A stretch of 64,000 nt of DNA from Incurvaria masculella (taxonomy: Eukaryota; Arthropoda; Insecta; Lepidoptera; Incurvariidae): the NCBI GenBank assembly GCA_946894095.1, contig OX335665.1, positions 2,862,001-2,926,000 on the forward strand, read 5' to 3'. The notes under the pieces are model-generated. The model saw nothing but the letters and a program-made list of their open reading frames with translations. It did not search any database and was not told the DNA's origin. Shown one piece after another: positions 16,754-59,979 of the stretch. The translations under genes and the position numbers were made by a program. Positions within the stretch are counted from its first letter, which is position 1, and each line of letters starts with the position of its first letter.

Positions 16754-17067
16754 GCTCTTTTAATATTCTGCAGATATAGGGTGATTCCAAGATTTTTAAA
16801 ATAAATTCTGTACATTTTGCGGAAACAAATGTTGGTCCCATCCGCCCGCCGGGTTTGTGAATCTAGTCAATGAAAACATGACTCGGGCCGGAAAAGTCCC
16901 CGAGGGGTCCAATTTTCCTTAGATGTCGAATTATCGAAGCCCACTTAATGTATTTCCATTTATAATTTAAATCTACTTATGGAGGAAAAGTGAATGTGTA
17001 CATTCACCCTAAGTCGGTCGAAGCCAACGAGTAGGAGTTTAACCAAAACTCATCCGGATATACTGCA

Positions 17068-17280
17068 GGACTTTTTCTAGGAATCCGTCATCAGCAATCA
17101 GGAATACTGCGTCTAGAACAGCTTTTATTGCGGTTGTCAAAGTGATTTTCTTGACGAAAAGATTCCAGAGCATAGTATTTCAATTTAATCGAGGTTTTCG
17201 GTCAAAAAAATCGCTTAGAAAGCTGTCTTGTAGACTCAGGATTCCTGATTCCTGATTACGGAATTCCAGGAATAGGTCTG
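17068..17280. mobile_element. MITE, AATTCCGTAATCAGGAATC family
   Basis: CTAGGAATCCGTCATCAGCA at the left, CTGATTACGGAATTCCAGGA at the right. The core GTTGTCAAAGTGATTTTCTT is as in the other copies. Confidence 0.75.
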
Positions 17281-17698
17281 CGGAAGTCGGATTAGACCTG
17301 ATACTGATGAAGTCTAATTCCGAAGGGATGTAGGGTCCTCTCTGTCTTCTATCGCCTTTACCATGGAGAATGCTCGTCGGAGCTGCATCACGCTGTCCCT
17401 CCGTCCCCTTTCTACCTTCGCTCAACGCGGAACAGGGAGAAGATGCACAGATCCACAGGCGACATTCCAAAAATAAGAACCTACCGATCCTTTAATATAA
17501 TTTTCCAATAGGGTCGGTAAACTATAGAATGAAAACTCTTCCGAGGTATTTCCCCCAGAGTACAACCTGGACTCCTGCAAACGTGGTGTGAAGAAGCACC
17601 TGGCCGGCCGACATAGTTTACGCAGCCCCCCTGAAAGTTCGAATACCCACGCGCGTAGTCTGGCGCACGACATGTCCTGCGCATGGCTGCACTAAACA

Positions 17699-17992
17699 TA
17701 AAAAACCGGCCAAGTGCGAGTCGGACTCGCACACGAAGGGTTCCGTACCATCGTAACAAGATTTAACACAAAAAAATCACGTTTTTGTATGGGACCCCCC
17801 CTTTAATATTTATTATTTTTTTATTTTACCTATTTGTTGTTATAGCGGCAGAATAAATTACGGTTCATGAGAGACAGCCCTGTTACAGACGGACGGACGG
17901 ACGGACGGACGGACAGACGGACGGACGGACGGACAGCGGAGGCTTAGTAATAGGGTTCCGTTGGCACCCTTTGGGTACAGAACCCAAAAAAA
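17699..17992 (-). mobile_element. GTCC-microsatellite lepidopteran element
   Basis: It has an AAAACCGGCCAAGTGCGAGT end, a perfect hairpin GCGAGTCGGACTCGC, a poly(GGAC) tract at about 17889-17935 and a final GGTTCCGTTGGCACCCTTTG block. It is non-coding. It may be a Helitron-like or other non-autonomous family; class not settled here. Confidence 0.85.
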
Positions 17993-19083
17993 CGAAATAT
18001 TTATCAGCAAGACGGATGGTTTACAAAGACAGCACATTATAATGAGAAATCTGACAGCCGAATGACGTTCAAGATGGCGACCGTTTAGTTTCGGTTTTGG
18101 CCACGCGCAAAATTAGCTTTAGGGACCTATACTTATTCTGTGCCCGTGTGCGCTTGAAGCCAGCGTTGCCAACATTAAGACGCGCAAAATCTCGTCGATT
18201 CTTACTTTCCTCGCAAAAATGGCCCATCAATCATGACGTCTGTGCAGTACAAACGCGACAAGATGGCACTTCCACGCAACGCAGACTTTCAGCTTATTGT
18301 ATTCTATTTGTGTTCGTCAAATTGGCAGACAAGCTACACTCAGACAGGTCATATTTTCTAATTTTAGGGCATAATTAGCATTTGCAACAATAAACAGAAC
18401 AACAATTAACATGCATACATCTTACAATTTCTGGCATATACCATTACCTCGTTAAATTTACTAAATAATTAAAAGTAAGCTAAATATGTCAAGGAAATTA
18501 TTAGTCAAAGGTTTTATGATATCTTAGGTCGCCTCGAGGACATCACATTGTCGTTTCGTTGATCGTTTGCAACGAATGTTGAATAAATACCCGTGTGATA
18601 TCGCATGGCTTGAACGGGCAAGAAAACACAAAGCATAGTGTAGATATCGCATGAGCTACATCACCATAGAAACTTCAAAACTGTCATTCCTGTCAAGTTT
18701 TATTTACAATAGTTAGATGACATATGTACTCCATGATGCAGTTAGAAAAGGTTAGCAGGAATATTCTTATAAAACATATTCGTTGAAAACCTCAACGAAT
18801 AATAAGTAATAAATTATTATTAAAATATTCTGGGAGGTCATGACACTTTTGGTTACAATAAGGCAAATTGCTCAATCTAGATTCATAGGTTAGAGACCAA
18901 CCCTCTTATACTAATTATGTCGGTCTACCCTTAGATGAAAAAGGAATGGATAGGGGACTAAAAAAAATTTACGGTCCGTCAAATATACGCTCAGTCAGCT
19001 CATATGCTCTCAGTCGGTGTCAAACGTCAATCCATGCGCGTCAGTTGGCCAAGATTTCAAAATATCAACAAAATGCCTTCAAA

Positions 19084-19157
19084 ATGTCTTGTGTGGTTGA
19101 CAAATGTCGAAATAACACTAATAAGCACAACAAGAGCAATGGAATCACATTCCATGT
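19084..19157 (+). pseudogene. THAP zinc-finger N-terminal exon of P-like transposase (remnant)
   Basis: The ATG-initiated exon reads MSCVVDKCRNN, then lysine/asparagine-rich sequence, then SNGITFH. It ends at a consensus donor (CATGT/GTAAGT, GT at 19158). A Cys-x4-Cys pair at the very N-terminus followed by G-I-x-F-H about 20 residues later is the opening of a C2CH THAP domain, the DNA-binding module of P-element transposases and THAP proteins. The frame is open upstream to 18946, but THAP domains sit at the N-terminus, so 19084 is preferred. The next acceptor (TTCATTTCAG, about 19290) leads to stops rather than the expected F-P continuation, so the rest of the domain is lost. A host THAP gene exon is the alternative. 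Confidence 0.6.
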
Positions 19158-19583
19158 GTAAGTACAAGCATATTCAGTATATTTTTAGTTTAGTTGACCT
19201 GAAACCTTTTATGTGTTGTAAAGGCGCAAACAGGGTTGGCACAAGCAAACTTAAAATATCAGTTCTATTTTTATTTTTGTTTTCATTTCAGTATTATATA
19301 TTGAACTAAATTTTATTATTAACTGCCACAAAACAATAGTCTACGTACTGTTTATTATTTTTTATCATGTCGTTTAGGATGTTTGTATAATATGTCTTAG
19401 TTAGCTTAGCTGTAATAAAAAGGTACATCTTTGAAAATGGTCAAAATTCTACATGTGACCGACAGCTCGTTTCCATAAAGATTAAATTCTCAAGTCGTTT
19501 TAAATTCTCAAGTCGTTTCTTGGCTCAAATGTCCTTTTGTCATTTCTGTATTCATTTCTTCAACCTGCTACATTTAATTATAG

Positions 19584-19731
19584 ACTCCATCTTCTTAGGG
19601 ATATTATCGAAAAATATGTAAATGTAAAACTTTATCATATACATAAAACCAATCTGGGGATTAAAGCCAGGACAAAAGGACAAAAGCGTAATAAACTGAA
19701 CCTATTTGAAGGAAAATATAAAAAAATGTAA
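19584..19731 (+). pseudogene. Basic C-terminal exon, probably P-like/THAP transposase (remnant)
   Basis: An acceptor, TTTAATTATAG, precedes an open frame, LHLLRDIIEKYVNVKLYHIH then KTNLGIKARTKGQKRNKLNL and FEGKYKKM, ending at TAA. A helix of aromatic and basic residues followed by a Lys/Arg-rich tail resembles, from memory, the C-termini of insect P-like and THAP9-like proteins. It lies only about 430 bp after the THAP exon, so over 90% of a normal transposase is missing. The assignment leans on its position inside the element. Confidence 0.4.
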
Positions 19732-21727
19732 AAAGAAAGAACTTAGTGGTTTATCAAAATACCATCACACATTTACGGCAAACGGCAATAATCATAAAGA
19801 GGTTTTACATGACACTGTACTGACTATTATTTGGACTATTTTTTAGCATCTAAAACGCATTGAACGAAATTTTTAAATGCATAAAATGCAAACATGGACA
19901 ATTCAAGAATAATCAATATTATTAGTTTTGCAATGTTTGACCCATACTTGCAATACATTAATGATTCCCTCTTTGTGTTTATTTAATTTTATGATTTAAA
20001 TATTTACAAATTGTGTATATTCGACTTTATTAATTTATCCTTAATATCGATGATTTTTACTCAGAAAAACGAGGGTTTGAAGAATGATTCCATTAATATT
20101 TTTTTCATTTTACCTCTTGCAAATTCGCCAAAAGATTAATTGATGCCTTGTTAACTATACAATCATGGTACTACTTGTTCTGACCACTATCACTAAATAG
20201 GAACCTTAATATTTTAATGTGCAATACAATATATTGTTATAATTTATTTTTGTGATCATTTTTTTTGGCAACCCTGCCGTTTTCACTTTCATTTTTCATT
20301 TAGTTTTGACGCGCCATTCTGGTCAAAGGGCTTAGCATGCGCGCATCGTTGATGTGTTATGATGGATAAGGATGAATTTTGCACTATATCTACGACCAGA
20401 TGTCACAAATGTCACCATCCCTTTTTCTCACGCTATAACTAATTCAATTTAAGGAAATTGTTGTCTCATTTCATTCTTTCGCGATTAGATGAATCTATTT
20501 GTCACTTTTTCGCATGATGCATTTCCTTATACCTTGGTCCTGCTCTATTACCCTTTACGTATTAGAGTTTGGTGTGCATGTAAAAGTATAGGTGTGTGAG
20601 TTTTTTTTTAAATAGGAACGCTTTTGAACTATCGTCAGTATGGAGGTACCGTATCCATTCTTTTTCATCTAAGGGTCTACCTGCGCCAAATGCTTACGTT
20701 AGCTAGATTGGTTACACAAAATATATGTTGGTATGAATATATCGATTGTCAGGACTTATTGATACCTATTAATTCTACAATAACAACTCGTCGGTTTTTT
20801 TTATGAAATACTTTAATGTAGCTAAAGTTACATCTGCAGGCCTATTCCTGGAATTCCGTAGTATTTCTAGTATTGTAGTATTTGCCTTATTGTAACCAAA
20901 AGTGTCATGACCTCCCAGAATATTTTAATAATAATTTATTACTTATTATTCGTTGAGGTTTTCAACGAATATGTTTTATAAGAATATTCCTGCTAACCTT
21001 TTCTAACTGCATCATGGAGTACATATGTCATCTAACTATTGTAAATAAAACTTGACAGGAATGACAGTTTTGACGTTTCTATGGTGATGTAGCTCATGCG
21101 ATATCTACACTATGCTTTGTGTTTTCTTGCCCGTTCAAGCCATGCGATGTCACACGGGTACTTATTAAACATTCGTTGCAAACGATCAACGAAACGACAA
21201 TGTGATGTCCTCGAGGCGACCTAAGATATCATAAAACCTTTGACTAATACATTCCTTGACATATTTACCTTACTTTTAATTATTTAGTAAATTTAACGAG
21301 GTAATGGTATATGCCAGAAATTGTAAGACGTATGTGTTCTGTTTATTGTTGCAAATGTTAATTATGCCTTAAAATAAAAAAATATGACCTGTCTGAGTGT
21401 AGCTTGTCCGCCAATTTGACGAATACAAATACAATACAATAAGCTGAAAGTCTGCGTTGCGTGGAAGTGCCATCATGTCGCATTTGTACTGCACAGATTT
21501 CATGATTGATGGGCCATTTTTGCGAGGAAAGTAAGAATCGGCGAGATTTTGCGCGTCTTAATGTTGGCAACGCTGGCTTCAAGCGCACTCGGGCACAGAA
21601 TAAGTATAGGTCCCACATAGCTAATTTTGCGCGTGGCCAAAACCGAAACTAAACGGTCGCCATTTTGAACGTCATTCGGCTGTCAGATATCTCATTATGA
21701 TGTGCTGTCTTTGTAAACCATCTATCT

Positions 21728-22048
21728 GTTCTGTACCCAAAGGGAGCCAACCGAACCCTATTACTAAGCCTCCGCTGTCCGTCCGTCCGTCCGTCCGTCT
21801 GTCCGTCCGTCCGTCCGTCCGTCTGTGACAGGGCTATCTCTCATGAACCGTAATAGGTGGGCAGCTGAAATTTTCACAGAGTGTGAATTTATTCTGCCGC
21901 TATAACAACAAATAGGTAAAATAAAAAAATAATAAATATTAAAGGGGGGGTGCCATACAAAAACGTGATTTTTTTGTGTTAAATCTTGTTACGATGGCAC
22001 GGAACCCTTCGTGTGCGAGTCCGACTCGCACTTGGCCGGTTTTTTATG
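21728..22048 (+). mobile_element. GTCC-microsatellite lepidopteran element
   Basis: Complete: TTCTGTACCCAAAGGGAGCC, then (CCGT)n at about 21776-21823, CTATCTCTCATGAACCGTAA, CCGCTATAACAACAAATAGG, and GCGAGTCCGACTCGCACTTG before GCCGGTTTTTTA. Confidence 0.88.
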
Positions 22049-22462
22049 TTTAGTGCAGCCATGCGCAGGACATGTCGTGCGCCAGACGACGCGCGTGGGT
22101 ATTCGAACTTTCAGGGGGGCTGCGTAAACTATGTCGGCCGGCCAGGTGCTTCTTCACATAACGTTTGCAGGACTCTAGGTTGTACTCTGGGGGAAATACC
22201 TCGGAAGGGTTTTCATTCTATTGTTTACCGACCCTATTGGAAAATTATATTAGAGGATCGGTAGGTTCTTATTTTTGGAATGTCGCCTGTGGATCTGTGC
22301 ATCTTCTCCCTGTTCCGCGTTGAGCGAAGGTAGAAAGGGGACGGAGGGACAGCGTGATGCAGCTCCGACGAGCATTCTCCATGGTAAAAGCGATAAAAGA
22401 CAGAGAGGACCCTACATCCCTTCGGAATTAGACTTCATCAGTATCAGGTCTAATCCGACTTC

Positions 22463-22680
22463 CGCAGACCTATTCCTGGAATTCCGTTATCAGGAATCAG
22501 GAATCCTGAGTCTACAAGACAGCTTTCTAAGCGATTTTTTTGACCGAAAACCTCGATTAAATAGAAATACTATGCTCTGGAATCTTTTCGTCAAGAAAAT
22601 CACTTTGACAACCGCAATAAAAGCTGTTCTAGACTCAGGATTCCTGATTTCTGATGACGGATTCCTAGAAAAAGGCCCGC
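22463..22680. mobile_element. MITE, AATTCCGTAATCAGGAATC family
   Basis: It runs from TATTCCTGGAATTCCGTTAT to GATGACGGATTCCTAGAAAA. It is the mirror copy of 17068-17280. Confidence 0.8.
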
Positions 22681-22979
22681 AGTATATCCGGATGAGTTTT
22701 GGTTAAACTCCTACTCGTTGGCTTCGACCGACTTAGGGTGAATGTACACATTCACTTTTCCTCCATAAGTAGATTTAAATTATAAATGGAAATACATTAA
22801 GTGGGCTTCGATAATTCGACATCTAAGGAAAATTGGACCCCTCCGGGACTTTTCCGGCCCGAGTCATGTTTTCATAGACTAGATTCACAAAGCCAGCGGG
22901 CGGATGGGACTTTTGTTTTTAGAGAATGTACCGAATTTATTTAAAAAATCTTGGAATCCCCCTATATCTGCAGAATATT

Positions 22980-23811
22980 TCAAGAAAATTGTCGAAATGA
23001 AAATCGCATTAAAGAGTACATTGACTAAGACCTAGGACCAATAGTCAAACATGTGATTGATAATTTAAATTTATATATATTATATATATATAATAATATT
23101 AATAACAACGATTGTTGTTTTTTTGTGTTTGTTGTAGAGACAGCACCATAACCATAATTTAAATTAAAAATAAAAGTTTTTCAATTATTCATTAATGAAT
23201 TAATAGACTCAGGGTTCCCGAATCCTGATTACGGAATTCCAGGAATAGGCCTAACCTTAATCGCCTATAACTACGAAATGCAACAATTTCAGTTTTGTTT
23301 TAAATTAGCAAGAATGTACTGATACTTTCAATCAAATAATTATTGTTTTGTCACCATAACTAATCATTATGTACCATAACTTATCTATGAAATGCAACCA
23401 CTTGACGCAGGCAGACAGTCACATTGAGCTTCAGAGGGTAGGTTTATCCTATGAACCTAGTTTCAGTTTTACGTCATCGTTACCATTTTGTTTCGCGACC
23501 TTAGTTTAAAACGAGCTAAAACCTAGCTGCTGCCTATGGATGATGAATAAACAATAAACTAAATTGTTTATTTAAATTCATAGAGAGAAGTGTCATCATA
23601 CCGCGGCGGCCGCACACGCGACCTCTGAAACGGGAAGGTTGACGCACCATGATACCGAATAGATATTTTAGCGAGATGAGAAATCTTATCATTTTCAATA
23701 GATGTTTTCTTTTGAAGATGCTCTCAATGGGCGTACATGCCCGCCGTCGTGTGTACGGGTGAAGTTAGGCTACATGCTCGATCATTTGCATCTTTGCTGT
23801 AATTATTTGAA
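22980..23811. other. AT-rich sequence with MITE fragment
   Basis: There is an AT-dinucleotide-rich stretch near 23070-23100 and a right-end fragment of the AATTCCGTAATC MITE at 23203-23256. No coding seen. Confidence 0.4.
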
Positions 23812-52269: not shown

Positions 52270-52398
52270 ACGATCGCCGACGGCGACGGAGGCGTGCGGA
52301 ACCTGAGCCGCGCGACTCCTCACTTGATGGACTTTTTATTCCCATCAACGTGCCGTACCAGCGGCACAGAGCACGCGGCGTTGCAGAGGCGACTTTTT
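52270..52398 (+). other. Candidate exon truncated by a repeat and by a duplication breakpoint
   Basis: An acceptor-like GCGTGTCTTCCAG (52257-52269) is followed by CpG-rich open sequence: TIADGDGGVRNLSRATPHLM then DFLFPSTCRTSGTEHAALQR and RLF. It is cut at 52398 by the AACCGACTTC element. The duplication begins at 52280, inside it, so the second copy (56130-56248) lacks the acceptor. The protein is not recognised. Confidence 0.35.
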
Positions 52399-52730
52399 AA
52401 CCGACTTCAAAAAAAGGAGGAGGTTATCAATTCGTCTGTATGTTTTTTTTTTTTTTTTTTTTTATGTTTGTTACCTCATAACTTTTTTCTGGGTGAACCG
52501 ATTTTGATGATTATTTTTTTAAATGATAGCTAGTGCTTCCCAAGTGGTCCCATTTTAATTTGGTTAAGTTCTGACAATGATATCCATGAGAAAATCATAA
52601 AAGTCTTAAATTTGTATTAAGATGTGCGCGACAAATGGACGAATAACTCAATATAACGCCAACCGATTTCGGTGATTCTTTTTTTATTCGAAAGGACGTG
52701 TACAAATTAGTAAGTGTACTTCAAATTCAC
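52399..52730 (+). mobile_element. AACCGACTTC interspersed element (repeated at 56249-56580)
   Basis: AACCGACTTCAAAAAAAGGA, TTGTTACCTCATAACTTTTT, AGCTAGTGCTTCCCAAGTGG and CGAAAGGACGTGTACAAATT. Confidence 0.8.
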
Positions 52731-52740
52731 TAAAAATAAA

Positions 52741-53040
52741 CAAATAAAAAAACAAATTTAACAAAAAAAATAACCGACTTCAAGGAAAAAGCACTAAAAA
52801 GTAAAAAATAATTTTCATTTTTGTAGTTACGATTTCTGTTATTTTTTGAGTCGGTGTCAGCCAAGGTTAGGTTAGGTTAGGTTAGGTTAGGTTAGGTTAG
52901 GTTAGGTTAGGTTCTCTTGATTGGCGCAGCGCGTGCCCGGCTGACGCCGACTCAAAAAATAACAGAAATCGTAACTACAAAAATGAAAATTATTTTTTAC
53001 TTTTTAGTGCTTTTTCCTTGAAGTCGGTTATTTTTTTTGT
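52741..53040. mobile_element. Foldback element with telomeric loop (repeated at 56591-56890)
   Basis: Arms AACCGACTTCAAGGAAAAAG...GTTATTTTTTGAGTCGG and its inverse. The loop holds TCAGCCAA, (GGTTA)9.8 and CTCTTGATTGGCGCAGCGCG. Compare the telomere-free loop at 23920-23980. Confidence 0.85.
52865..52913 (+). repeat. (TTAGG)n telomeric array, about 10 units (repeated at 56715-56763)
   Basis: Nine perfect GGTTA units plus GGTT, the insect telomere repeat in the TTAGG orientation, inside the loop of a foldback element. Confidence 0.92.
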
Positions 53041-53230
53041 TAAATTTGTTTTTTTTTACACCAAAAATGGAGATCATTAAATTTCATCCATGACCGAAGC
53101 GACTATTGTCGCCATGGAATATTTGCATGCTTCTGACATTTCTAGATTAAATTAGTAATCTACAATAATATTATAAAGAGTTTGTTTGATTATTTCATAG
53201 ATTTTTTTTAATAAGAAAATAAGGTTCGCT

Positions 53231-53490
53231 TCTACCAAGTACTGATTAGCTTAATCCTCACATTAAAGGGCCTTTCTTACCATCTAGCATTCGATACCAG
53301 CACAAAATAATCAGCACTTGGTGAAAACCAGGCTAAGGGTTCCACCAAGTACTTCTTTGTTTACATTTTCTTACTTTGTTATTGATACCATTACAAGTAA
53401 TCAGCACTTTAGTAATAAAGGAACTTTTTTACGGATAAACAGTGTTCAGCTGACTTATTTAGCCCGACCTCTCAAGATTCGCGACGCGTC
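53231..53490. mobile_element. Two ACCAAGTACT MITE fragments and an inverted-end fragment (repeated at 57081-57340)
   Basis: CCAAGTACTGATTAGC, AATCAGCACTTGGTGAAAAC, CCAAGTACTTC and AATCAGCACTTTAGTAATAA are the MITE family. TTACGGATAAACAGTGTTCA at 53431 is the end of the element seen at 15047. Confidence 0.65.
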
Positions 53491-53949
53491 ATTGTTAACT
53501 TAAAACAATATGTTGAACAACAGTGAAAATTTAAACTAACATACAATAATTTCTAACCGCCATTATTTGCACCGACGGTGTGAATTTAAAACTTACATCA
53601 TTCCGTTTTACGCGTGACCAAAGTGAACATTGTCTTCATGAAATATTTGCATGCGTCCAGCATGTCTTTATTGAATATTTAAAATATCTTATTTCAAATA
53701 TTATTATCAGAAAATTAATACAAGGAAAGTACGATCTTTTCAATCACACAACGCTGTTTGATTTCAAATATCGTGCTTTGACGAAGAACGAAGAGGCAGA
53801 ACTTGTACCATGGTACAGGTCCCAGCAGACAACTTTTGTATTTGTATTTGTATTTATTAATCCTCCTTTGGGACGCAGGGAACACTTGGAATCGTCAAAC
53901 AATTACAATTGAATACAATTAAAATTAAAGCATACTAGATCCCTGCAAC

Positions 53950-54031
53950 CATCATTCCCGAAGGATTCGGATGCCATGCCAGAACTTTCCTTTTATAAAG
54001 TCACGGCTACATTGAACTATGGAAAACAATA
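53950..54031 (-). mobile_element. SINE body fragment (repeated at 57800-57881)
   Basis: ATTCCCGAAGGATTCGGATG, CCATGCCAGAACTTTCCTTT and CACGGCTACATTGAACTATG. Confidence 0.65.
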
Positions 54032-54508
54032 CTCCACTCAAGAACTTCACTGTGCCGTGTAGATCAGCAGTTTTTGGTGCGGAGAAAAATACTGGTCTAA
54101 ATAAAAAATAGGTATAAATGTTGAGCTGTCACCTCTGCCTATGACACTCTGTGGCGTAACCCAAGCCGCGGTGACCGCGGCCGCTTCGGAGGCGTTTGTT
54201 TGCATTTTCATAATATTAAGGGACCTTAGAAAGTACCTGCATGGCGAGGGATGACGGTTTCACTGACAATATGATCCTTATTACTTTCAGGCCATTAAAC
54301 AAGGAGAGTTGTAATGTCAGGTTGAATAAAAAAAAAATCTTTCACTGAATCGAAGATTCGAAATTCTTTTACAACAGATATAATACCAGTAAGTATTATC
54401 TTTGGTAATACTAGCTGAGATACCCGGCTCCGCTCGGGTCAATGTCGTTTCGAATTGATGACGGGCAGAACCTATCCAATGCAATTATCAAATCTTAATA
54501 CACTTAGC

Positions 54509-54671
54509 CCCGGTTGCACGAAGAGACGACTGAGTTAATCAATGCTTAAACACGTCACTTTTAGTGATCCGCATAGAGTTCCTTCCATACTGTCCACACA
54601 AATGGACGTGTTTGATCATAATATACTTTGACTTTGATTTTGATTTTTTGTCCTTTCGTGCACTCGGCCCT
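54509..54671 (+). mobile_element. MITE, GCCCCGATTGCACGAA family (repeated at 58359-58521)
   Basis: GCCCCGGTTGCACGAAGAGA to TTTCGTGCACTCGGCCC. Confidence 0.82.
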
Positions 54672-55844
54672 TAGCTGTATTGAAACTTGACGATTTAACA
54701 GCAAATACATTGTTTTTACCTGCTCTTTTATCGAAGCCAAATTTTTATTAGCTTGTAAGGTTTTACATTATTTAAAAAAAAAATTGGCAAACATAGTTAG
54801 AAGTCAGCGAATACAATTTACGATATTTAAACATTGGCAACACTGAGACATGAAAACAAGAGAAAAACGCGGGAAAACGGACACATAGCCAATGAGGTAT
54901 TTTGTGTTGGACGGTATTTTGTAAGAAAAAGTGGAAATGATTATCAAACGACTATTACCTTAATTATAGCCTTGAAAAGTTAAAGGTTGTTTATATTTCA
55001 CGCGATACCCTTACAATTGGACAAAATGTATTCAAAATGTCTATTTGAAAACGTTGTTTGTATTTATTACAACCAGTATCTCCTCCAAACAGCATAGACA
55101 AGAGACGCACGTTTATCATCATTCCACCTCGCTGCGTTCCCGCCGGAATTGACAGCCGTGGACGACAAACGGACGAGAGGACGCGAATCGCAGCCATGTT
55201 GTTTTGTTCTGGTTGTCATGACAACCCGTGCCATTGTCACGTCTCGACGGCAGTGGCGTAGCTATAACTATTATTATTATTATATATTATTATTATACTA
55301 ACAACTAAAGTGATAACCTAACCTAACCTAACCCACCCACCGCGCTTAAGTTCTGAGATGGCGGCTGACCATTTTTTTGGTCGTGCGATCATCCGAGGTG
55401 GGCTGTTGAGACAACCACATCCTAGCATGGGTTTTAATGGGTTGGGTTTTATGGGGAGGAGAAACTTGTTTCGTCGTGCTTGACGTTTCATGTTAAAATC
55501 TGTGCCAGGAACTAAAAAAAAAGGCGCCCGATGACGCCCATGGGCTAACCAACTTTCACAGGGCTGCGTGCTTCTTCACACCATGTTTGAAGGACCACAG
55601 GTTGTACTTTGATGGAAAAACTTCAACAGGGAGTCGATTCCATTGTTTACCGACCCTATAGATAAAAGATCAAGAGAATCGGTGGGTTCTTATTTTGGGA
55701 ATATCGACAGTGAATGGGTGCATTCCCTGCCTGTTCCTGAGACCTTACATCCCTTCGGAGTTGAAGGGTATCTTAATTCAGGGATACTAATGAACTAAAT
55801 AGACTCGCAATGGCACCACACATCATTGCCAAAGAAACCGTTGT
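54672..55844. other. Unassigned sequence in the duplicated unit (repeated at 58522-59694)
   Basis: Contains short ATT and CCTAA arrays (55271-55333), a degraded low-copy fragment at 55530-55760 (GATGACGCCCATGGGCTAAC) and CpG-rich 55130-55200. Open frames on both strands at 54991-55261 have no recognised domain. Confidence 0.4.
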
Positions 55845-56003
55845 TCGTAACCGTGGTGTTTCGTAAACTGAGCGCGGTCGGGTCTTTGATGGGTGACCCC
55901 TTTCGAGCGGTGAGGCAGGGCGTGGTTCGGATTCCATTGACGGGTTTGTTCTGTAATTAAAGATGCTTCAAGCGGCAATGAAAGTGTTTTTCATCCAGAC
56001 AAA
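55845..56003 (+). mobile_element. 5S-headed SINE, degraded (repeated at 59695-59853)
   Basis: GAGCGCGGTCGGGTCTTTGA then TGGGTGACCCC keeps the 3' half of a 5S-like head. GTGGTTCGGATTCCATTGAC and TTCAAGCGGCAATGAAAGTG follow. Confidence 0.6.
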
Positions 56004-56129
56004 CGTACATGACAAACATACATGCAAACAATTATTTTTCACGTATTTTTAAATAGGTTACCAAATAAAATATCCTCAACATCTATAATGATGACATTGA
56101 TAGTCTTTGATAGCGCATTTTCTGTTTAT

Positions 56130-59100
56130 ACGGCGACGGAGGCGTGCGGAACCTGAGCCGCGCGACTCCTCACTTGATGGACTTTTTATTCCCATCAACG
56201 TGCCGTACCAGCGGCACAGAGCACGCGGCGTTGCAGAGGCGACTTTTTAACCGACTTCAAAAAAAGGAGGAGGTTATCAATTCGTCTGTATGTTTTTTTT
56301 TTTTTTTTTTTTTATGTTTGTTACCTCATAACTTTTTTCTGGGTGAACCGATTTTGATGATTATTTTTTTAAATGATAGCTAGTGCTTCCCAAGTGGTCC
56401 CATTTTAATTTGGTTAAGTTCTGACAATGATATCCATGAGAAAATCATAAAAGTCTTAAATTTGTATTAAGATGTGCGCGACAAATGGACGAATAACTCA
56501 ATATAACGCCAACCGATTTCGGTGATTCTTTTTTTATTCGAAAGGACGTGTACAAATTAGTAAGTGTACTTCAAATTCACTAAAAATAAACAAATAAAAA
56601 AACAAATTTAACAAAAAAAATAACCGACTTCAAGGAAAAAGCACTAAAAAGTAAAAAATAATTTTCATTTTTGTAGTTACGATTTCTGTTATTTTTTGAG
56701 TCGGTGTCAGCCAAGGTTAGGTTAGGTTAGGTTAGGTTAGGTTAGGTTAGGTTAGGTTAGGTTCTCTTGATTGGCGCAGCGCGTGCCCGGCTGACGCCGA
56801 CTCAAAAAATAACAGAAATCGTAACTACAAAAATGAAAATTATTTTTTACTTTTTAGTGCTTTTTCCTTGAAGTCGGTTATTTTTTTTGTTAAATTTGTT
56901 TTTTTTTACACCAAAAATGGAGATCATTAAATTTCATCCATGACCGAAGCGACTATTGTCGCCATGGAATATTTGCATGCTTCTGACATTTCTAGATTAA
57001 ATTAGTAATCTACAATAATATTATAAAGAGTTTGTTTGATTATTTCATAGATTTTTTTTAATAAGAAAATAAGGTTCGCTTCTACCAAGTACTGATTAGC
57101 TTAATCCTCACATTAAAGGGCCTTTCTTACCATCTAGCATTCGATACCAGCACAAAATAATCAGCACTTGGTGAAAACCAGGCTAAGGGTTCCACCAAGT
57201 ACTTCTTTGTTTACATTTTCTTACTTTGTTATTGATACCATTACAAGTAATCAGCACTTTAGTAATAAAGGAACTTTTTTACGGATAAACAGTGTTCAGC
57301 TGACTTATTTAGCCCGACCTCTCAAGATTCGCGACGCGTCATTGTTAACTTAAAACAATATGTTGAACAACAGTGAAAATTTAAACTAACATACAATAAT
57401 TTCTAACCGCCATTATTTGCACCGACGGTGTGAATTTAAAACTTACATCATTCCGTTTTACGCGTGACCAAAGTGAACATTGTCTTCATGAAATATTTGC
57501 ATGCGTCCAGCATGTCTTTATTGAATATTTAAAATATCTTATTTCAAATATTATTATCAGAAAATTAATACAAGGAAAGTACGATCTTTTCAATCACACA
57601 ACGCTGTTTGATTTCAAATATCGTGCTTTGACGAAGAACGAAGAGGCAGAACTTGTACCATGGTACAGGTCCCAGCAGACAACTTTTGTATTTGTATTTG
57701 TATTTATTAATCCTCCTTTGGGACGCAGGGAACACTTGGAATCGTCAAACAATTACAATTGAATACAATTAAAATTAAAGCATACTAGATCCCTGCAACC
57801 ATCATTCCCGAAGGATTCGGATGCCATGCCAGAACTTTCCTTTTATAAAGTCACGGCTACATTGAACTATGGAAAACAATACTCCACTCAAGAACTTCAC
57901 TGTGCCGTGTAGATCAGCAGTTTTTGGTGCGGAGAAAAATACTGGTCTAAATAAAAAATAGGTATAAATGTTGAGCTGTCACCTCTGCCTATGACACTCT
58001 GTGGCGTAACCCAAGCCGCGGTGACCGCGGCCGCTTCGGAGGCGTTTGTTTGCATTTTCATAATATTAAGGGACCTTAGAAAGTACCTGCATGGCGAGGG
58101 ATGACGGTTTCACTGACAATATGATCCTTATTACTTTCAGGCCATTAAACAAGGAGAGTTGTAATGTCAGGTTGAATAAAAAAAAAATCTTTCACTGAAT
58201 CGAAGATTCGAAATTCTTTTACAACAGATATAATACCAGTAAGTATTATCTTTGGTAATACTAGCTGAGATACCCGGCTCCGCTCGGGTCAATGTCGTTT
58301 CGAATTGATGACGGGCAGAACCTATCCAATGCAATTATCAAATCTTAATACACTTAGCCCCGGTTGCACGAAGAGACGACTGAGTTAATCAATGCTTAAA
58401 CACGTCACTTTTAGTGATCCGCATAGAGTTCCTTCCATACTGTCCACACAAATGGACGTGTTTGATCATAATATACTTTGACTTTGATTTTGATTTTTTG
58501 TCCTTTCGTGCACTCGGCCCTTAGCTGTATTGAAACTTGACGATTTAACAGCAAATACATTGTTTTTACCTGCTCTTTTATCGAAGCCAAATTTTTATTA
58601 GCTTGTAAGGTTTTACATTATTTAAAAAAAAAATTGGCAAACATAGTTAGAAGTCAGCGAATACAATTTACGATATTTAAACATTGGCAACACTGAGACA
58701 TGAAAACAAGAGAAAAACGCGGGAAAACGGACACATAGCCAATGAGGTATTTTGTGTTGGACGGTATTTTGTAAGAAAAAGTGGAAATGATTATCAAACG
58801 ACTATTACCTTAATTATAGCCTTGAAAAGTTAAAGGTTGTTTATATTTCACGCGATACCCTTACAATTGGACAAAATGTATTCAAAATGTCTATTTGAAA
58901 ACGTTGTTTGTATTTATTACAACCAGTATCTCCTCCAAACAGCATAGACAAGAGACGCACGTTTATCATCATTCCACCTCGCTGCGTTCCCGCCGGAATT
59001 GACAGCCGTGGACGACAAACGGACGAGAGGACGCGAATCGCAGCCATGTTGTTTTGTTCTGGTTGTCATGACAACCCGTGCCATTGTCACGTCTCGACGG

Positions 59101-59979
59101 CAGTGGCGTAGCTATAACTATTATTATTATTATATATTATTATTATACTAACAACTAAAGTGATAACCTAACCTAACCTAACCCACCCACCGCGCTTAAG
59201 TTCTGAGATGGCGGCTGACCATTTTTTTGGTCGTGCGATCATCCGAGGTGGGCTGTTGAGACAACCACATCCTAGCATGGGTTTTAATGGGTTGGGTTTT
59301 ATGGGGAGGAGAAACTTGTTTCGTCGTGCTTGACGTTTCATGTTAAAATCTGTGCCAGGAACTAAAAAAAAAGGCGCCCGATGACGCCCATGGGCTAACC
59401 AACTTTCACAGGGCTGCGTGCTTCTTCACACCATGTTTGAAGGACCACAGGTTGTACTTTGATGGAAAAACTTCAACAGGGAGTCGATTCCATTGTTTAC
59501 CGACCCTATAGATAAAAGATCAAGAGAATCGGTGGGTTCTTATTTTGGGAATATCGACAGTGAATGGGTGCATTCCCTGCCTGTTCCTGAGACCTTACAT
59601 CCCTTCGGAGTTGAAGGGTATCTTAATTCAGGGATACTAATGAACTAAATAGACTCGCAATGGCACCACACATCATTGCCAAAGAAACCGTTGTTCGTAA
59701 CCGTGGTGTTTCGTAAACTGAGCGCGGTCGGGTCTTTGATGGGTGACCCCTTTCGAGCGGTGAGGCAGGGCGTGGTTCGGATTCCATTGACGGGTTTGTT
59801 CTGTAATTAAAGATGCTTCAAGCGGCAATGAAAGTGTTTTTCATCCAGACAAACGTACATGACAAACATACATGCAAACAATTATTTTTCACGTATTTTT
59901 AAATAGGTTACCAAATAAAATATCCTCAACATCTATAATGATGACATTGATAGTCTTTGATAGCGCATTTTCTGTTTAT
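56130..59979. repeat. 3850-bp tandem duplication, copy 2
   Basis: Head-to-tail with copy 1. The join is CTGTTTAT/ACGGCGACGG. After 59979 the sequence continues into unique DNA (CATTGTGGCTG). It carries the same set of repeats as copy 1, listed there. Confidence 0.95.

Follow-up and report, generated by a model that had tools for sequence, protein, structure and literature searches.

P elements are familiar mainly from flies. Internally deleted P elements and P-type miniature inverted-repeat transposable elements (P-MITEs) are described from Drosophila, Anopheles and zebrafish (PMC7776569; PMC1562414; PMC10983969), and an arthropod survey that includes four lepidopterans lists the P element superfamily among arthropod DNA transposons (PMC6327564). 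The terms 'P-element' and 'P superfamil' are absent from the consulted text of a MITE study of Helicoverpa (PMC9033116); databases already contain P-type proteins of several Lepidoptera. Here, we describe an element at positions 18930–20673 of a 64,000-bp stretch of the genome of the moth Incurvaria masculella (C25:2862001-2926000, hereafter the window; the host assembly comprises 552,006,686 bp in 31 contigs). The element is almost certainly a P-superfamily transposon of the cut-and-paste type, and the middle of its transposase gene is missing.

The P-MITEs of Anopheles gambiae resemble the window element in their P-type ends, perfect 8-bp duplications, non-autonomy and terminal homology to a coding P element, but the window element still aligns over about 1.49 of its 1.74 kb to a full-length relative, designated L051, and carries coding pieces at both ends (PMC1562414). 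With internally deleted P elements of Drosophila such as KP, it shares an internal deletion of the transposase gene and the retention of both ends (PMC7776569). The zebrafish Pdre elements likewise duplicate 8 bp of target, have short inverted ends, include internally deleted copies beside a full-length gene and carry subterminal repeats hundreds of bp inside the ends; their end sequences are unlike those found here, and their full-length gene specifies an active enzyme, whereas the only full-length relative found in the moth is broken (PMC10983969; PMC7776569). The window family is not named in the P-element literature consulted, which is no proof of its being unpublished. We regard it as a new family of an already known type, and the window element is an ordinary internal-deletion derivative.

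Structure of the element and its full-length relative

The initial annotation had proposed a P-type internal-deletion derivative with a perfect 8-bp target-site duplication, inverted ends of about 24 bp, a THAP-type first exon with a consensus donor and a basic terminal exon, and all of these proposals held. The components are as follows.

18922..18929, no strand: left 8-bp target-site duplication GGTCTACC, with a gap-free empty-site paralogue
18930..20673, + strand (transposase-sense): non-autonomous element assigned to the P superfamily, length 1744 bp
18930..18952, + strand: 5' terminal inverted repeat CTTAGATGAAAAAGGAATGGATA
19084..19157, + strand: first coding exon, about 25 N-terminal THAP residues, ending in FH plus 2 nt (phase 2); MSCVVDKCRNNTNKHNKSNGITFHV
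19158..19363, + strand: 5' remnant of intron 1, beginning with the donor GTAAGT at 19158
19231..19244, + strand: possible subterminal inverted repeat, left copy CAGGGTTGGCACAA, 12/14 complementary to 20263-20276
19363..19369, no strand: internal-deletion junction; element positions 434/440 align to L051 positions 517/3192, with about 2.67 kb absent
19397..19713, + strand: frame-broken vestige of the final ~100 P-transposase codons, ending in QKRNKLNLFEG
19482..19517, + strand: 18-bp perfect tandem duplication inside the C-terminal remnant
20012..20222, + strand: about 210 bp without a counterpart in L051 (gain here or loss there), element positions 1083-1293
20263..20276, + strand: possible subterminal inverted repeat, right copy TTTTGGCAACCCTG
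20652..20673, - strand: 3' terminal inverted repeat (TATCCATTCTTTTTCATCTAAG on the + strand), inverted, 22/22 identical to the 5' end of L051
20674..20681, no strand: right 8-bp target-site duplication GGTCTACC, the identical octamer on both flanks

The element was assigned mainly by comparison with L051 (G000:C25:3610024-3613416), which lies on the same contig about 730 kb away and was found through a search for the RNase H domain of P transposases. From its left end through the THAP exon and donor into the start of intron 1, L051 aligns to element positions 1-434 (82 per cent DNA identity), and its last coding part and 3' region align to positions 440-1083 (85 per cent) and 1293-1704 (91 per cent). 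Between intron 1 and the last exon, L051 carries about 2.67 kb that the window family does not have, and this stretch encodes the remaining THAP, P-type helix-turn-helix, RNase H and GTP-binding parts. Because the two sequences correspond from the 5' end into the start of intron 1, THAP exon included, and again over the C-terminus and the 3' region, and differ by the loss of this stretch, we identify the window element as an internal-deletion derivative of the P superfamily. What remains in it comprises the two ends, the first THAP exon, part of intron 1, a C-terminal coding remnant and the 3' region.

In Pfam searches, the pieces of L051 and the P locus L056 match THAP, PF12017, PF21787, PF21788 and PF21789; the last three models, found in L051 pieces, represent the RNase H-like domain with its GTP-binding insertion, which is deleted in the window element. 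In addition, the C-terminal piece of L051 finds the Drosophila P transposase among solved structures (6p5a; E = 4.8e-15), with SQDHLELFFG of L051 aligned to NQDIVEHFFG. The catalytic acidic residues of the Drosophila enzyme are D230, D303 and E531 (PMC7776569), and the L051 motif would, by this alignment, correspond to the E531 region. L051 is itself damaged: its frame is broken at least once and probably twice, and its right end is missing, as the match ends at element position 1704. Its nearest proteins are 55–57 per cent identical (best 120 of 432 matches, with the 870-amino-acid family described below as query); the C-terminal part is nearest to P0009, PYW08_006005 of Mythimna loreyi, and the N-terminal part to P0022.

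Traits of the P superfamily are present in the form of 8-bp duplications, short terminal inverted repeats and an N-terminal THAP domain (complete by way of L051). The inverted ends start CTTAGATGAAAAAG... and extend over 22–24 bp with one indel, the left end having one extra G after 14 perfect bases; identity is 90 per cent over the outer 29 bp and 96 per cent over the outer 23 bp. When the whole window was scanned for exact 14-bp inverted arms at a spacing of 300–6000 bp, immediately bordered on their outer sides by the same 8-mer, 14 matches were obtained, and the window element is the one with a true, non-palindromic direct duplication. The 8-mers of the other 13 are self-reverse-complementary, and these matches therefore fit inside longer inverted repeats. 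The possible subterminal inverted repeat (CAGGGTTGGCACAA / TTTTGGCAACCCTG) lies about 300–400 bp inside each end and, by eye, is also present in L051. As a guess, it may have a role like that of the subterminal repeats of zebrafish Pdre2 (PMC10983969; PMC7776569).

Coding remnants

On its own, the THAP exon of the window element scores 14.4 bits (E = 0.065), below the Pfam cut-off of 23.9. Its homologue in L051, joined to exon 2, gives a complete THAP domain with 55.2 bits, and a further homologue occurs in the 870-amino-acid family. The first intron is in the same place in L051 and in that family (phase 2, in the codon after FH; splice sites assigned by eye). At the other end, the remnant at 19397-19713 corresponds to the C-terminal ~100 residues of the transposase of L051, with 84.5 per cent identity over the final 71 amino acids, and its frame breaks near the 18-bp tandem duplication at 19482-19517.

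An intact transposase gene, as an autonomous element would have, is not present: about 2.67 kb of the gene is gone, and the C-terminal frame is broken. With the catalytic part absent and the remnant frame interrupted, the window element makes no transposase. The KP product is reportedly a repressor whose THAP domain is complete, whereas the window element has only about 25 THAP residues, so that no DNA-binding repressor would be expected from it. We considered and rejected a KP-like repressor in view of these few residues and the broken C-terminal frame. The THAP exon occupies the same position in 18 other aligned copies; one of them (L022) has no ATG and another (L026) has a changed donor, and the exon is therefore not obviously under selection. 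A comparison of L051 with a deleted copy, L062, gave 7, 3 and 8 differences at the three codon positions (of 109 each), too few to show past selection.

Copies in the host genome

The ends of the window element recur hundreds of times in the genome. Exact matches to the 29-bp left end number 423 in the assembly (197 + 226), and those to the 28-bp right end 429 (202 + 227), with no match to either backwards control. The first 301 bp of the element as query returned 41 matches, 40 of them with at least 98 per cent identity (best 40 of 617 candidates). Viral contigs contained no exact match to either end, in a set from which records near the genome of the window may be left out.

To characterize individual copies, 20 further places, picked by similarity to the 5' end of the window element and hence not a random sample, were fetched and compared with the window copy. 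One (L027) was left out as too short, so that 20 copies were read at both ends; L002-L008 are shorter views of places L009-L015 and were counted once. Perfect 8-bp duplications, all mutually different, flank 17 of these 20 copies (window copy included), and the outcome that the initial annotation had named as refuting, other copies without 8-bp duplications, was not seen. The copies read align without a break over the same deletion junction and therefore, within this sample, descend from one deleted founder. Nineteen copies differ from one another by a mean Kimura two-parameter distance of 0.031; just one of them is more diverged than the window copy, which departs from the column majority by 3.1 per cent.

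Unoccupied sites were sought by comparing the joined flanks of the 20 copies with the window and the fetched loci. The joined flanks of the window element, with one GGTCTACC, align gap-free to L009:3148-2995 (124 of 154 positions identical), where the target is present once as GGTCTGCC, and they also align to L014 over 86 bp. Alignments that span the junction in element-free sequence were obtained for six of the 20 copies: the window copy, L010, L014, L015, L016 and L019 (for L019, the right flank was cut 8 bases off, owing to its damaged right end).

On contigs C1-C4, among the matches listed (eight left ends listed on C5 were set aside, and the right-end list reaches to 0.7 Mb before the end of C4), 69 of 92 exact left ends are paired with an exact right end on the same strand within 15 kb. 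The paired elements fall into two main size classes, of about 1.7 and 2.05 kb: 35 measure 1640–1800 bp and 21 measure 2001–2250 bp, with four at 1801–2000 bp, four below 1640 bp and five above 2250 bp. The larger class is accounted for by an extra stretch of about 0.3 kb at element positions ~1267-1600, which has an 11-bp direct repeat on either side and occurs in L009 and 12 others of the 20 copies read. This stretch is probably an insertion that spread with the element as a passenger; a deletion between the 11-bp repeats in the shorter class is a possible alternative.

No transposase was found in the two middles read (L061 and L062) from the five pairs longer than 2.25 kb. The middle of L061 consists of repeats that also occur in the window, and that of L062 of a deleted element plus an insert with a frame that, by reading alone, looks like the reverse transcriptase of a long interspersed nuclear element. 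Another long copy, L015 on contig C24 (2984 bp), owes its extra length to a nested palindromic insert of about 1.2 kb (element positions ~1310-2560), which by eye has long inverted ends of its own.

Source of transposase and alternative explanations

Some observations weigh against the assignment of the window element as a deleted P element. Three of the 20 copies have no perfect duplication as printed: in L017, six of eight bases agree; in L019, the right end is damaged and the target octamer comes after the damage; and L025 is nested inside another copy. Among the matches listed, 23 of the 92 left ends on C1-C4 lack an exact partner on the right at a distance of up to 15 kb. A PDB search with the N-terminal catalytic piece of L051 gave no match at E <= 0.01. 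L051 and the window copy are 82–91 per cent identical in DNA, and L051 is therefore a relative of the window copy and not its direct parent. Finally, DNA searches of the assembly found no intact transposase of the same family, although such searches skip very common words and do not prove absence.

Of the three parts into which the lost stretch was divided, these searches covered two. With L051:1000-2600 as query, L051 was recovered at 100 per cent and other places at only 65–71 per cent DNA identity (10 of 10 candidates scored); with L051:2600-3067, L051 and one further place at 71–72 per cent were recovered (two of two scored). The intact relative that the initial annotation had considered possible elsewhere in the genome was thus not recovered for this family by these searches, and L051 is broken, although the genome also contains long-framed P transposases of other families. 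The P-transposase RNase H model, PF21787, has 144 matches in the assembly, gene pieces counted apart (best 150 of 162 candidates), and several families among them have long open frames (827, 864 and 870 amino acids) in several copies.

We propose that a P-type transposase supplied from elsewhere would have bound both ends of the element, excised it and reinserted it with an 8-bp stagger; such movement in trans is suggested by the 8-bp duplications together with the known P mechanism. One deleted founder would then have been amplified to the more than 400 places that now carry the exact left end. The helper was most likely an autonomous P element of the same family, a sister of L051, that has been lost, is unassembled or still segregates in the species. 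As no intact same-family transposase was found, we only infer this helper.

A different P family of the same genome (for instance, that of 870, 864 or 827 amino acids) may instead have amplified the family in trans by recognizing its ends or subterminal sites. This alternative, which concerns the mover and not the identity of the element, is possible, though we hold it to be unlikely. The genome does contain long-open-frame P transposase genes in several like copies and yielded no intact same-family gene, and the THAP intron position is, by eye, common to the 870-amino-acid family. However, the 5' end of that family (GATCTAAATCGATAGATGAG...) is unlike CTTAGATGAAAAAG, in a comparison that concerns this family, the left ends of the 827- and 864-amino-acid families lying outside the loci covered. 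Moreover, each of the 20 PF21787 matches listed on C1-C4 is more than 10 kb from all 92 exact left ends. None of 30 P loci (L029-L058, which span 1.5 kb on either side of the domain) contains the 23-bp end within five errors; the L051 locus begins 34 bp inside its element, and for the families of 827 and 864 amino acids the left ends again fall outside. The 14-bp core with at most two mismatches has only an internal match, in 11 loci of the 864-amino-acid family, and with up to three errors it is absent from two 801-bp pieces of another P family, pieces that do not reach the termini. Natural cross-mobilization, in which the more than 400 non-autonomous copies were amplified by a different, open-framed P family in the same moth, appears rather doubtful to us, and a same-family helper is preferred.

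With respect to identity, membership of one of the other superfamilies in which 8-bp duplications or THAP domains occur (hAT, Merlin, Mutator or Kolobok) is very improbable for the window element. Duplications of 8 bp do occur outside the P superfamily. However, L051 pieces and L056 match only THAP and P/THAP9-type Pfam models, and no hAT transposase domain is found in them (both at E <= 0.01). Kolobok elements duplicate TTAA, whereas the copies read show octamers of varied sequence. The chance capture of a host THAP gene exon, or of its pseudogene, between inverted repeats can be dismissed as vanishingly improbable: the THAP exon alone is short and scores below threshold, but it recurs at the same place inside the ends of 18 other aligned copies, its full-length relative L051 runs on into a P transposase, and the dispersed copies with target duplications already refute such an origin, so that the continuation into a host gene considered in the initial annotation is not seen and the exon is part of a dispersed element. 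We therefore retain the assignment to the P superfamily.

Other observations

Of the 144 PF21787 matches, 27 lie on contig C20 (17.8 Mb, 3 per cent of the assembly). The two 801-bp pieces mentioned above (L063 and L064; C12:18240100-18240900 and C14:19085242-19086042) belong to another P family, lie upstream of the transposase and contain repeated exon-like units; they are identical over their 801 bp, which suggests very recent movement.

In the window, the element lies in the spacer of an inverted duplication of about 2.15 kb, with arms at 16756-18881 and 20866-22985 that are 93–97 per cent identical and that could, if transcribed, form a long hairpin. Elsewhere, a perfect tandem duplication of 3850 bp (52280-56129 and 56130-59979; 100 per cent identity, no gaps) is either very recent or an assembly artefact.

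Implications

A single moth genome thus holds 144 matches to the P catalytic domain (best 150 of 162 candidates), several open-framed P families and a non-autonomous family of more than 400 copies for which no helper of its own was found. Because these families occur together in one genome, the mover of the non-autonomous family is testable within one species.
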